Assembly: GCA_000799755.1 (NCBI GenBank)
Contig: JUHI01000001.1
Location: forward strand, 868,001-932,000
Length of the DNA stretch: 64,000 nucleotides
DNA from: Martinezella tropici
GTDB taxonomy: Bacteria; Pseudomonadota; Alphaproteobacteria; Rhizobiales; Rhizobiaceae
Direction: 5' to 3'
Of the stretch, positions 59,398 to 64,000 are shown in pieces; the first letter of the stretch is position 1, and the number at the start of each line of letters is the position of its first letter. The position numbers and the translations under genes are program-made. A model generated the notes under the pieces. The model did no database searches and had not been told where the DNA came from. It saw nothing but the letters and a program-made list of their open reading frames with translations.

Positions 59398-60378
59398 TCA
59401 TTTCGACTGGAGGATAATCAACACCTTGCTCGCCATGCTGTTGGCGATCGACAATGCCTGGACACCCATCTGTTGCGCAGTCTGCAGAGCGCTCTGTCGA
59501 ACCGAGGCTTCTTCCATATTCGTATCGACGAGATCGCCGACGCTGCTCTTGATGGCATCGCTGAGTTTGGAGATGTAGTCCGACTGGCTATCGATATTCG
59601 ACTTCATCAGACCCAGCGTCGAATCCGCAGAGGTCGCCGACTTCAGGAGCGAATTGGTGACGTTGATCATATCCGTCAGCTCGTCGGCGGTTGTGCTGCT
59701 CGACAGAGCGATCTCGGTCCCGCCCGCCGGCGTCGAGCCGCCGCTGGCCGCCAGGAGATAATAGTTGCGAGCTGTGCCGCCGCTGCTGCTGGAAGTGCCG
59801 AGCGTGCTGGCATCCACATTTTTCGTCAGCAAGCCCCGGCTGGGATTTGCGGTGTCGATCATCAAGGTCTGGGAACTGTCGTAGTTGATGGTCGTGAAGC
59901 TGATCTGCCCGCTTGTTCCGCGCGTGAAGTTGCTGATCACGGATTGCTGCGTGGTGGGCTGCTGCGCCGAATTGTAGAGCCAGTTCTCACCGGAGAAGGA
60001 AGCCGACTGGGTTACCGATTGCAGCTGCCCCTTGAGCTGCTGAATATCGGAATTGATGGCATCCTTGTCGGTACCCGCCTCCGTAGCAGAAACCAGCTTG
60101 GCCTGGATCTGGGTCAGCAGGCTGACGACCGTATCCATGGCGGTGGACGCGGTGTCGACCTTGGACGCGCCGAGACCCAGCGCATCGGTAATCGTCGAAA
60201 GACTGCTCTGGTCCGAGCGCATGGTGGTCGCCATCGACCAATAGGTCGGATCGTCGCTTGCCGTCTGGATGCGGTAACCGGATGAGACCTGCTGCTGCAC
60301 GACACCGAGATCTGTGTTGATTCCGCGCAGCACGGTCAGCGCCGCCGACGCGGCAGGATTCGTCGTCACATTGCTCAT
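59398..60378 (-). CDS. Divergent flagellin
   Basis: This 326-residue protein has both conserved flagellin ends: V-S-S-G-Y-R-I-Q-T-A-S-D-D-P near residues 30-43 and the C-terminal helix with N-M-E-E-A-S-V-R-Q-S-A-L-Q near residues 288-300. It differs strongly from the flagellin next door in the first 40 residues (M-S-N-V-T-T-N-P rather than M-T-S-I-L-T-N) and in its Ser/Thr/Gly-rich middle. I use the ATG at 60378, since the longer frame to 60444 adds residues not found in flagellins. It is probably a minor filament subunit. Confidence 0.88.
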   Translation of the reverse strand: MSNVTTNPAASAALTVLRGINTDLGVVQQQVSSGYRIQTASDDPTYWSMATTMRSDQSSLSTITDALGLGASKVDTASTAMDTVVSLLTQIQAKLVSATEAGTDKDAINSDIQQLKGQLQSVTQSASFSGENWLYNSAQQPTTQQSVISNFTRGTSGQISFTTINYDSSQTLMIDTANPSRGLLTKNVDASTLGTSSSSGGTARNYYLLAASGGSTPAGGTEIALSSSTTADELTDMINVTNSLLKSATSADSTLGLMKSNIDSQSDYISKLSDAIKSSVGDLVDTNMEEASVRQSALQTAQQMGVQALSIANSMASKVLIILQSK

Positions 60379-60634: not shown

Positions 60635-61555
60635 TCACTTGAAGAGGGCGAGAACGTTTTGCGCACTGGTGTTTGCGATCTGCAGCGACTGGATGGCCAA
60701 CTGCTGCTGGGTCTGGAGCGCCGACAGCTTGCTCGACTCTTCTTCCATGTCCGCATCGACCAGCTTGCCAACGCCGGAATCGATCGTGTCGCGCAGGGTG
60801 GAGACGAAGCTCGTCTGGAGATCGATGCGGGTCGAGAGCGAGCCGAGCTGCGAAGCCGTGCTGTTCATGGCGTTGAGAGCGCCTTGTACCAGGTTCATCG
60901 CCTTGCCGATATCGCCGCTCGTCATGTTGGTGATGTCGAGGCTGAAAACGGAATAGGCCTTGCCGCTGATGGTCTGCTTGCTGCCAAGGATCCCCGAACC
61001 CGTGTCGATCGTTCCATTGCTTTTCGCACCGAAGAGGACGTTGCCCTGCGAGCCTGTGTTGAAGGCGTAGCTGGTGCTGTTGACGGAAACCGTGCCGTTA
61101 TTGTTGCGCACGAAGGAGGAGACGACCGAGGCCGAAGCACCGTTGACGGCATACATCCAGTTCTGCCCCGAGAAGGATGCGGATTGAGCAATGCTCGCCA
61201 GCTGCTGCTGAAGCTGTGCGATTTCCTCCTGGACGTCCGATTTCGACACGCTGTTTTCGGTTGCCGCGACGAGCTTGTCCTTGATCTGCTGAACGACCGT
61301 GATGGAGTTATCCATTGCGGTATAGGCCGTATCGACCTTGGCAGCACCCAGGCCCAATGCATCCGAGACGGCGGAGAGCGCGCTGTTGTCGGACCGCATG
61401 GTCGTCGCGATCGACCAATAGGCGGCGTTGTCGGATGCCTTGGCGACCTTGTAGCCGGAGGAAACGCGGCTTTGCGTGTCCTGCAGGCTTGCGTTGATGG
61501 TGCGCAGGGTTTGGAGGGCGGACATCGCCGCGTCGTTTGTGAGGATGCTTGTCAT
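60635..61555 (-). CDS. Flagellin, standard rhizobial type
   Basis: This 306-residue filament protein starts with M-T-S-I-L-T-N-D-A-A, followed by S-R-V-S-S-G-Y-K-V near residues 29-37 and A-L-G-L-G-A-A-K-V-D-T-A near residues 66-77, and ends with the conserved Q-I-A-N-T-S-A-Q-N-V-L-A-L-F helix. It is like FlaA/FlaC-type flagellins of rhizobia and slightly short, with a reduced outer domain. AAGGGGC precedes the ATG at 61555. Upstream lies an unusual array of GTTAAC sites. The divergent flagellin gene follows after 256 bases. Confidence 0.92.
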   Translation of the reverse strand: MTSILTNDAAMSALQTLRTINASLQDTQSRVSSGYKVAKASDNAAYWSIATTMRSDNSALSAVSDALGLGAAKVDTAYTAMDNSITVVQQIKDKLVAATENSVSKSDVQEEIAQLQQQLASIAQSASFSGQNWMYAVNGASASVVSSFVRNNNGTVSVNSTSYAFNTGSQGNVLFGAKSNGTIDTGSGILGSKQTISGKAYSVFSLDITNMTSGDIGKAMNLVQGALNAMNSTASQLGSLSTRIDLQTSFVSTLRDTIDSGVGKLVDADMEEESSKLSALQTQQQLAIQSLQIANTSAQNVLALFK

Positions 61556-62011: not shown

Positions 62012-63499
62012 ATGTTCAGTTTGCAGGACGCCGGACGAGCGGCGGTCGATCGCCACGAGCGAACGAGCCTCGACCCCGATGATTGGCAGGCCCTGCGCAA
62101 GCAGGGCCATCAGATGCTCGACGACATGTTCGATCATCTCCAGTCGCTTGGAACGAAGCCTGTCTGGCAGCATCCCCCCTCCTCCGCCCGCGCCTTGCTC
62201 GATGCACCGCTGCCCACCAAGGCCAGTGATCTTGCCGAGATCCATGCCATCTTCCGGGAGAATATCCTCCCCTATGGCAGCGGCAATATTCATCCGGGCT
62301 TCATGGGCTGGGTCCAGGGCGGCGGCACGGTTACCGGCATGCTGGCCGAGATGCTTGCGGGCGGGCTGAATGCCAATCTCGGCGGGCGCGACCACATGCC
62401 GATCGAGGTCGAGCGCCAGATCATCCGCTGGACGCGCGAGATCTTCTCTTTTCCGGAGACGGCGGGCGGCATTTTCCTGACCGGCGCATCGCAGGCCAAT
62501 TTCGTTGCGGTGCAGATCGCCAGATGCCGCAAGCTCGGACGCGACGTGCGCGTGACCGGCCTCTCCGACGAATCCCGGCTTGTCGCCTATGCCTCAAGCG
62601 AGGTGCATGGCTGCGTTCCCCGCGCCTTCGAAATGTCCGGCATCGGCAGCGATCAGCTGCGACGCATCCCGGTCAATCATCTCGGCCAGATCGACGTCGA
62701 TGCACTGGAACAGACCATCCTTCGTGACAGACAGGAGGGTTTCGTGCCGTTCCTGGTCATCGGCAGCGCGGGGACGGTCAATACCGGCGCCGTCGACGAC
62801 CTCGCCGCGCTGCGACGTATCGCCGACGGCTACGATCTTCATTTTCACGTCGACGGCGCGCTGGGCGCCCTCGGCATACTGAGCCCTGACCTTGCGCCTC
62901 TGTTCGCCGGGATCGACAGCTGCGATTCGCTTGCCTTCGATTTCCACAAATGGGGCCAGGTGCCCTATGATGCCGGCTTCCTGCTCGTGCGGGACAGCGA
63001 ATGGCAGCGGCAAACCTTCGCCTCGGATGCCGCCTATCTCAGCCGCGCCACCACGGGGCTTGCCGGCGGAGACTGGTGGCCCTGCGACTACGGCCCGGAT
63101 CTGTCGCGCGGCTTCAGGGCGCTGAAGACCTGGTTCACGCTGAAAACCCATGGCACCGAAGCGCTGGGGAATGCGATGAGCGCCAATTGTAGGCTGGCCC
63201 GCGCGCTCGCCGGGCGCATCGAACGGGAACCTACCCTGAAACTGCTCGCACCGGTCGCGCTCAATATCGTCTGCTTCGCCTATGTCGGCCCGAACGGGAC
63301 GGCGCCTGCATCGGTCAATTCCCATATCGTCGAGCGGCTACATGCCGAAGGCCGCGTCGCTCCATCCCTGACCCATCTGAACGGGCAGCCGGCAATCCGC
63401 GCCGCGATCGTCAACCACCGCACGCGGCAGGCCGACATAGACGCGCTCGTTCACAGCGTTTTGACAATCGGCTCGCAACAGGACCTCCCCCAATGCTGA
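62012..63499 (+). CDS. PLP-dependent amino acid decarboxylase (group II)
   Basis: The 495-residue enzyme has the group II decarboxylase fold. H-x-G-F-M near residues 93-97 forms part of the substrate pocket, F-H-V-D-G-A-L-G near residues 278-285 holds the cofactor-binding Asp, and D-F-H-K-W-G-Q-V near residues 311-318 holds the PLP-binding Lys. The family includes aromatic amino acid, glutamate, diaminobutyrate and cysteine-sulfinate decarboxylases; the D-G-A in place of the usual D-A-A and the general pattern do not decide the substrate. It is followed by an overlapping partial gene, so the amine it makes may be used by that product. It is divergent from flagellin. Confidence 0.88.
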   Translation: MFSLQDAGRAAVDRHERTSLDPDDWQALRKQGHQMLDDMFDHLQSLGTKPVWQHPPSSARALLDAPLPTKASDLAEIHAIFRENILPYGSGNIHPGFMGWVQGGGTVTGMLAEMLAGGLNANLGGRDHMPIEVERQIIRWTREIFSFPETAGGIFLTGASQANFVAVQIARCRKLGRDVRVTGLSDESRLVAYASSEVHGCVPRAFEMSGIGSDQLRRIPVNHLGQIDVDALEQTILRDRQEGFVPFLVIGSAGTVNTGAVDDLAALRRIADGYDLHFHVDGALGALGILSPDLAPLFAGIDSCDSLAFDFHKWGQVPYDAGFLLVRDSEWQRQTFASDAAYLSRATTGLAGGDWWPCDYGPDLSRGFRALKTWFTLKTHGTEALGNAMSANCRLARALAGRIEREPTLKLLAPVALNIVCFAYVGPNGTAPASVNSHIVERLHAEGRVAPSLTHLNGQPAIRAAIVNHRTRQADIDALVHSVLTIGSQQDLPQC

Positions 63500-64000
63500 T
63501 GACCAAAGCCCCGACCATCGATCCGGTTTCGCCCAGCACGCCTGACGCCTCGCGCATTCTCGGTATGCAGAGGATCGTTTCGCTCGTCTATGCCGGTCGC
63601 GACGTGACGCCGCTGTGGAACGAGCTCATGCAGCGCGTGACGGCGGACCCGACCGATGCGGCCGCATTCATGGATCTCGCGATTATCCTACAGACCCTCG
63701 GCCGCACCGAGGAGGCTCGCCAGATCCTGAAAAACGCCGTGCAATTGCGCCGCGACTTTTCTGTGGTCCATGGCAATGGAACCGGGCGACATCTGCTGGC
63801 CTTCGTCACCGAAGGCGACTTCATGGCCAACACGCCTCTGGATTTTCTGCTGGCGGGCAGCAATTGCGTGCTGTTGCTGCGCTACGTCAACCTGGAAGTC
63901 ACTGAAATCACCGATCTGCCGGATCACGACGTCGCCTTCATGGCGATCGGAGAGTCGACCGAAAACGCGCCGCTGCTTGCCCATATGCAAAAACTGCTTG
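63493..64000 (+). CDS. 5' part of a TPR-containing, possibly ATP-grasp-type protein
   Basis: The frame opens with ATG at 63493, overlaps the decarboxylase stop by 7 bases and is still open at the window end; 169 residues are seen. Residues 25-85 form a helical repeat pair with a TPR pattern (A-F-M-D-L-A-I-I-L-Q-T-L-G-R-T-E-E-A). From residue 98 an alpha/beta segment begins: L-L-A-F-V-T, G-D-F-M-A-N-T-P-L-D-F-L-L, then D-H-D-V-A-F-M-A-I-G-E-S near residue 147. This second part resembles the pre-domain of ATP-grasp ligases. The ligase idea is from memory of similar proteins and needs the missing part. Confidence 0.6.
   Translation, partial: MLMTKAPTIDPVSPSTPDASRILGMQRIVSLVYAGRDVTPLWNELMQRVTADPTDAAAFMDLAIILQTLGRTEEARQILKNAVQLRRDFSVVHGNGTGRHLLAFVTEGDFMANTPLDFLLAGSNCVLLLRYVNLEVTEITDLPDHDVAFMAIGESTENAPLLAHMQKLL

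Follow-up and report, generated by a model that had tools for sequence, protein, structure and literature searches.

A decarboxylase gene paired with a predicted ATP-grasp ligase gene between flagellin genes of Martinezella tropici: a possible flagellin-modification module

Introduction

What might an amino-acid decarboxylase gene be doing when it runs into a ligase-like gene in the midst of flagellin genes? The question is raised by the last part of a stretch of 64,000 nucleotides of the Martinezella tropici genome (contig JUHI01000001.1, positions 868,001 to 932,000; G000:C1:868001-932000), referred to below as the window. The two genes are designated here as DEC, encoding a group II pyridoxal 5'-phosphate (PLP)-dependent decarboxylase, and LIG, encoding a protein with a tetratricopeptide repeat (TPR)-like N-terminal part and a predicted ATP-grasp fold; the 3' end of LIG was taken from the genome sequence beyond the window. 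The present analysis suggests that DEC and LIG, together with a third gene, C2, where it is present, may constitute a flagellin-modification module, a reading that is put forward tentatively, as falling just short of probable.

Flagellin decoration affects filament assembly and host recognition, and is of interest in rhizobia, since these bacteria live by contact with plant roots. If the proposed module exists, decarboxylation coupled with ATP-grasp ligation would be an unusual flagellin chemistry, and it would give a first role to proteins annotated as TPR-containing, hypothetical or RimK family ligase.

Conservation and Flagellar Setting of the Gene Pair

The DEC-LIG pair is located between flagellin genes, on the strand opposite to them. 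The seven-base overlap of DEC and LIG, reported in an earlier sequence-only reading of the window, was confirmed, and it is retained with the same start and stop in 23/23 related loci, in all of which a motif resembling a ribosome-binding site, ACAGGA, was also found by eye about nine bases upstream of the LIG ATG. Close relatives of LIG occupy 24 loci in genome_contigs; in 23 of them, with the exception of L026, DEC stands directly before LIG and flagellin genes are present on both sides (L and G are locus and genome handles, and f and g denote the family and genus numbers of the genome sample).

LIG relatives were detected in 53 of the 148 genomes of the genus sample (E 1e-20), 8/199 genomes of the family sample (E 1e-5), 15/249 of the order sample (E 1e-10) and 20/249 of the phylum sample (E 1e-10), all counts including the M. 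tropici genome itself. When 64 loci were laid out together, DEC adjoined LIG in 47, many of the loci being close relatives rather than independent cases; duplicates of a place already represented, the genus loci L086-L114, and more distant or longer relatives (e.g., L046-L048, L059-L069 and L079-L085) are not part of this set. DEC is beside LIG in 29/29 of the genus loci L086-L114. The search for a conserved pair in other genomes, proposed in the sequence-only reading, thus showed that DEC and LIG are kept together far beyond the genus. Seven plasmid records contain LIG relatives, and the spread of the module by plasmids is possible; a plasmid of Rhizobium tropici CIAT 899 encodes a LIG of 48% identity. 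The annotations of module proteins in one plasmid record are 'tetratricopeptide repeat-containing protein' and 'hypothetical protein'. A phage origin was considered and rejected, as a single scan of viral_contigs, for which two peptide patterns were used, detected no LIG relative. No report of the DEC-LIG pair was found in the literature covered (open-licence PMC papers).

The flagellar setting recurs outside the window. The genome G749 of the same genus carries the whole trio DEC-LIG-C2 between flagellin genes, and three further lineages of the phylum, each at the family level, have the pair at most 10 kb away from flagellin genes. In family f35, genus g143 (G232, G338 and G409), the trio is placed between flgE-flgK-flgL-like genes and flbT-flagellin genes, where the flgL-like protein scores under the FlgL cut-off; in G249 of f52, LIG is 9 kb from a flagellin gene and flgE-, flgK- and flgL-cluster genes adjoin DEC; and in G514 of f88, which belongs to another class, the order is flagellin-flaG-fliD-DEC-LIG-C2, with a partial GT41-like match of 152 amino acids (aa) before flagellin at the stretch edge. 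In G184 and G300, a LIG gene without DEC is no more than 16 kb away from flagellin.

The pair is near flagellin genes in 5 of the 11 arrangements compared, or in 4 of 10 when both arrays of the genus are treated as a single event; left out of the 11 were g310 (G578), whose 6.8-kb contig is too short, and g205 (G381), containing DEC-C2 with LIG not adjoining. Positions no more than 10 kb from a flagellin match make up about 1% of the M. tropici genome, and against this expectation the 4/10 corresponds to P ~2e-6, uncorrected for kinship and genome choice. In the phylum sample, flagellin is present in 20/20 genomes with LIG versus 183/228 others (Fisher P 0.015, also uncorrected for kinship), and it is present in 36 of the 37 genomes with any LIG-type match.

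The Decarboxylase

DEC matches PF00282 with an E-value of 3.3e-59 (201 bits, cut-off 27), and residues His199, Asp281 and Lys313 are invariant in an alignment of 16 members, which bears out the group II PLP decarboxylase with catalytic motifs recognised in the sequence-only reading. H199, D281 and H312-K313-W314 line up with the solved decarboxylases; following the roles assigned in the family, the Lys of the D-x-H-K-W motif is presumably the PLP lysine, the Asp the pyridine-binding residue and the His the stacking one. The closest solved chains are 4obu, a pyridoxal-dependent decarboxylase, and several DOPA/tyrosine decarboxylases. DEC scores under every NCBIfam equivalog cut-off (best 134 bits vs 900), including that of the MfnA model (75.1 bits vs 299.4).

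The segments HPxFMGWVxGxG and GLNxNxGGR are identical across the 16 aligned DEC members that pair with LIG, which suggests that these decarboxylases act on one common substrate. Tyrosine was considered as this substrate because a tyrosyl-tRNA synthetase gene, tyrS, neighbours the trio in G541 and, judging from clustering, also in G578, and was rejected; this tyrS encodes the sole TyrS above the cut-off in each of the two genomes, and it is therefore read as a housekeeping gene giving no clue to the substrate. Group II decarboxylases can supply an amine of the taurine type; taurine is named here only as a kind of amine that such an enzyme can make.

The Predicted Ligase

The TPR pattern noticed in the sequence-only reading was retained in part. 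An AlphaFold 2 (AF2) model was built for a 90%-identical LIG relative from L004, with an alignment of 18 rows from named genome records, and it contains four helices in the relevant region (residues 25-33, 39-51, 53-68 and 72-84; pLDDT ~65-75 there). The best Pfam match of the whole window protein, TPR_19, scores 22.9 bits (cut-off 25), and the part of LIG inside the window scores 24.6 bits with the same model. TPR models match other members of the LIG family (the best E-value, 2.5e-9, in one member), and a search of the Protein Data Bank (PDB) with a profile of 28 LIG relatives found TPR proteins.

The same profile also gave weak PDB matches (E ~0.008-0.02) to carbamoyl-phosphate synthase, an S6-modification-type enzyme (3vpd) and D-Ala-D-Ala ligases. 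The best AF2 model (mean pLDDT 73, pTM 0.72) was then compared with known structures. Foldseek matched it to LysX/ArgX with an E-value of 9.9e-13, and also to inositol kinases of the same fold; VIA gave a Z-score of 18.8 with RimK (rmsd 3.5 over 274 residues), 18.5 with ArgX and 17.1 with glutathione synthetase, among the families of the comparison list. The ATP-grasp match extends from LIG residues 97-99 to residue 416. The segment GDFMANTPLDFLL, in which the sequence-only reading had seen the pre-domain of an ATP-grasp ligase, belongs to the N-terminal part of this match, and all 28 homologues share its N113 and P115. R239, P240, H244, G246, K287, R289, D361 and E374 are also invariant in the 28 relatives.

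Profile searches gave weaker indications. CPSase_L_D2 matches the window protein with 11.3 bits against a cut-off of 19.8, and weak ATP-grasp matches at E up to 0.1 were obtained for a few of the 28 members (GSH-S_ATP in three, RimK in one, CPSase in one). PF08443 (RimK) was absent for the window LIG at E up to 5 and appeared in 1 of the 28 members (E 0.0069); the record of one distant relative, carried by a plasmid, assigns it to the RimK family. An hhalign comparison with the RimK/GshB-like protein of the same genome was weak (P 0.064), the glycine-rich loop and the R...DG strand lining up. At the level of the predicted fold, LIG is rightly described as an ATP-grasp ligase; reading the gene past position 64000 showed that the remainder of the protein has this fold by prediction, with matching motifs that depart from the textbook ones at two sites.

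Several relatives of LIG differ in architecture. The same genome encodes two longer paralogues of ~630 aa (G000:C40:8380-9330 and G000:C4:293303-294181; L047 and L048), and in the L048 paralogue, the N-terminal part is longer and resembles many TPRs, the C-terminal domain is the same and, by eye, E-x-N stands in place of E-x-D. The LIG relative at L040:6992-11251 stands at the end of a 1419-aa frame, which could reflect a gene fusion or a frame called too long mechanically; the long N-terminal part of this frame matches no Pfam family at E 0.001. At L132:9209-10990, a gene for a multi-TPR sulfotransferase touches a LIG relative that has no DEC. On a plasmid of Paraburkholderia sp. FT54 (L169, 9016-11381), a LIG relative overlaps by four bases a gene annotated as serC, which makes this another PLP-enzyme neighbour in a different lineage. 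On a plasmid of Cupriavidus sp. EM10 (L170, 8956-10205), the annotation breaks a LIG relative into two frames, and flgB and three glycosyltransferase-type genes stand nearby.

The Third Gene

C2 also adjoins in 18 of the 47 DEC-LIG loci and encodes a protein of ~440-590 aa as mechanically called. Three gene orders were found: DEC-LIG-C2 in f88, f69 and G749, LIG-C2-DEC in a second type of locus of the genus (type-2 loci) and in g73, and C2-LIG-DEC in f35. The retention of the trio in three orders, with four-base overlaps between some of its genes, points to DEC, LIG and C2 forming one functional unit. L147 contains only a C2 remnant, and in L078 the contig stops before the possible C2 position. 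Loci of the window type are devoid of C2; G000 and G723 each carry one C2 relative elsewhere. Neither C2 nor the flagellin neighbours had been seen in the sequence-only reading.

No family was assigned to C2 by Pfam or NCBIfam at the thresholds used, and two unrelated Pfam matches, in one member each, appeared at E up to 10; its profile found unrelated proteins alone in the PDB (E 0.04-0.9). Asp232 and Lys259 are invariant and accompanied by a GSK motif. An hhalign comparison with the DEC family was colinear but weak (P 0.033, probability 1.5), with the Asp and Lys falling near the Asp and Lys of DEC; a comparison with three class V aminotransferase-type proteins of the same genome gave a 40-column match (P 0.019) missing both residues. 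The two invariant residues and the colinear alignment with DEC are a hint that C2 may be a second PLP enzyme, of fold-type I.

Features of the Locus

The coordinates are collected in Table 1. In tblastn searches with the flagellin encoded downstream of LIG, the flagellin gene directly upstream of DEC showed 69% and the second one of the array 41%. The flagellar cluster also contains, downstream of the flagellin genes, a gene for a TPR and GT41 protein, likely a flagellin glycosyltransferase; this gene is present in 21 of the 24 related loci, and a contig end cuts short two of the other three.

Table 1. Genes and sequence elements of the M. tropici locus, in window positions unless a locus or contig is named.
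Feature	Position	Strand	Evidence
DEC, group II PLP-dependent amino-acid decarboxylase, 495 aa	62012-63499	+	PF00282 match, invariant active-site residues
LIG, 5' part, gene for TPR and ATP-grasp ligase (predicted fold)	63493-64000 in window	+	Open reading frame start ATG at 63493
LIG, whole gene, 416 aa	L002:2493-3743 = window 63493-64743	+	Sequence past window end
Overlap of DEC stop and LIG start, 7 bases, ATGCTGA	63493-63499	+	DEC stop TGA at 63497-63499
AGGA within the 3' end of DEC, possible ribosome-binding site of LIG	63480-63483	+	Sequence
Flagellin gene directly upstream of DEC	60635-61555	-	PF00669 match at G000:C1:929148-929546 = window 61148-61546
Second flagellin gene of the array	59398-60378	-	PF00669 match at G000:C1:927968-928369 = window 59968-60369
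TPR and GT41 glycosyltransferase gene	L002:6267-8210 (window-equivalent 67267-69210)	+	Flagellar cluster, downstream of flagellins

Discussion

The sequence-only reading had combined DEC and LIG into a pathway leading to a free small-molecule product. The ligase is borne out as a predicted fold, and the pair is conserved; the flagellin genes on both sides and the third gene together shift the probable target, and flagellin or its glycan is now likelier than a free small molecule. According to the scheme we infer, DEC would decarboxylate an amino acid, yielding an amine, and LIG, as a RimK/LysX/GshB-like enzyme with a short N-terminal TPR part, would activate a carboxylate with ATP as an acyl phosphate and couple the amine to it. 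The acceptor would most likely be flagellin itself or else its glycan, through a group of acidic or peptidyl nature; the TPR part would hold this acceptor before export, and C2 would probably prepare or trim the amine precursor. A more specific version, in which a trio mobile in Proteobacteria places a dedicated amine directly onto flagellin carboxyls (side chains or the C-terminus), guided by the TPR part and without any sugar, is considered unlikely.

A number of observations weigh against a flagellin-modification module. Six of the 11 arrangements have no flagellin nearby, namely, the type-2 loci of the same genus, g73, g235, g298 (judged from a 12.5-kb contig), g255 and g265, and the type-2 loci lack any flagellin or hook match. 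Three type-2 loci (L149, L150 and L152) share a different neighbour block, which includes a gene for an EptA-type phosphoethanolamine transferase and a phosphatase-like gene, as scanned in L149 only. No DEC adjoins LIG in 17 of the 64 loci; in 16 of these no DEC was found, and in L145 a DEC-C2 pair lies some kilobases from the LIG relative, so that DEC either is not always needed or lies elsewhere. As for the proteins, the TPR part of the window LIG is short and under the Pfam cut-off, and the structural model is of medium confidence (mean pLDDT of the five AF2 models 73, 63, 59, 55 and 53). The alignments bearing on C2 as a PLP enzyme are weak (hhalign P 0.033, with the class V match missing Asp and Lys). 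Textbook ATP-grasp enzymes possess a lysine binding the ATP phosphate and a metal-binding D...E-x-N; LIG has Arg239 where the lysine is expected, and its metal site reads E-x-D in most members, E-x-N being found in a longer LIG paralogue and in L127. Because of these two replacements, the activity of LIG is not certain.

The alternative that survives best, a genuine possibility if still a doubtful one, is a small-molecule pathway in which LIG couples the DEC amine to a free amino acid or another acid, giving, for example, a gamma-glutamyl amine, and the flagellin site is a landing place or reflects shared regulation. GshB and LysX, which act on small substrates, are among the ATP-grasp relatives of LIG matched by VIA. 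The self-contained and mobile character of the trio, its varying flanks, its plasmid copies and the six non-flagellar arrangements are all consistent with such a pathway, as are the genes for 2-isopropylmalate synthase, an enzyme of the leucine pathway, and for TyrS, which neighbour a few of the loci; both, however, have the look of housekeeping genes, which for the former, leuA, is a guess. A pair of the same kind is described for archaea: MfnA makes tyramine and MfnD joins tyramine to glutamate (PMC8141765). No methanofuran gene was recognised among the scanned neighbour proteins, which were a selection. Against the small-molecule pathway speak the recurrence of the flagellar location across families and classes, well over the ~1% expected, and the whole trio standing between flagellin genes in G749.

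It is quite improbable that LIG is a divergent ATP-grasp protein that no longer ligates amines and serves as a nucleotide-binding regulator, a flagellin chaperone or a kinase, which DEC merely adjoins. The Lys-to-Arg and E-x-N-to-E-x-D changes, the match of inositol kinases and the 17 loci with no adjoining DEC would fit such a role; however, the putative catalytic residues are strictly kept in 28 sequences, and DEC and C2 remain with LIG despite changes in gene order, which argues for linked chemistry. Similarly improbable is a module acting on another surface or secreted protein, a lipid or a polysaccharide, with flagella as one of several settings: the non-flagellar loci, the EptA-type block of L149, L150 and L152 and an EptA-type gene annotated ~8 kb upstream on a plasmid of R. 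tumorigenes speak for it, but the block is confined to three related loci of one genus, the type-2 loci L148, L151 and L153 have other flanks, and the flagellar setting spans families.

Comparison with Known Systems

The proposed flagellin-modification module can be compared with several described systems. The Shewanella oneidensis operon SfmABCDE encodes SfmE, a predicted ATP-grasp carboxylate-amine ligase of 412 aa taking part in flagellin modification, and its deletion shifts the flagellin mass and reduces spreading in soft agar (PMC3765264). SfmE resembles LIG, by description only, as an ATP-grasp gene product in a flagellin setting, whereas the operon, as described, contains neither a decarboxylase nor a C2-like gene. 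In the type B flagellin locus of C. difficile, an ATP-grasp gene is located near the flagellin glycosylation genes, its role being suggested by the authors (PMC5207246), and the flagellin glycan of this bacterium is described as a taurine-containing peptidylamido-glycan with a taurine-Ala-Gly cap (PMC5207245). The gene set of this locus differs from DEC-LIG; as described, it includes FemAB-like and ornithine-cyclodeaminase-like genes, with no mention of a decarboxylase.

The methanofuran synthesis enzymes MfnA and MfnD are similar to DEC and LIG in that a PLP-dependent tyrosine decarboxylase is followed by a tyramine-glutamate ligase (PMC8141765), and the present pair is unlike them in that DEC is far under the MfnA cut-off and LIG carries a TPR part. 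Caulobacter FlmG, described as an N-terminal TPR part joined to a glycosyltransferase, modifies flagellin (PMC7591256); FlmG, so described, and LIG both combine an N-terminal part, TPR-like in the case of LIG, with a catalytic domain, a glycosyltransferase in the former and a putative ligase in the latter, and the TPR and GT41 protein of the DEC-LIG cluster recalls the FlmG layout. With RimK, LysX/ArgX and glutathione synthetase, LIG has in common the predicted fold of residues 97-416, and differs from them by the Arg in place of Lys and by the added TPR part. The participation of an ATP-grasp gene in flagellin modification has precedents in S. oneidensis (SfmE) and, as suggested by its authors, in C. 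difficile.

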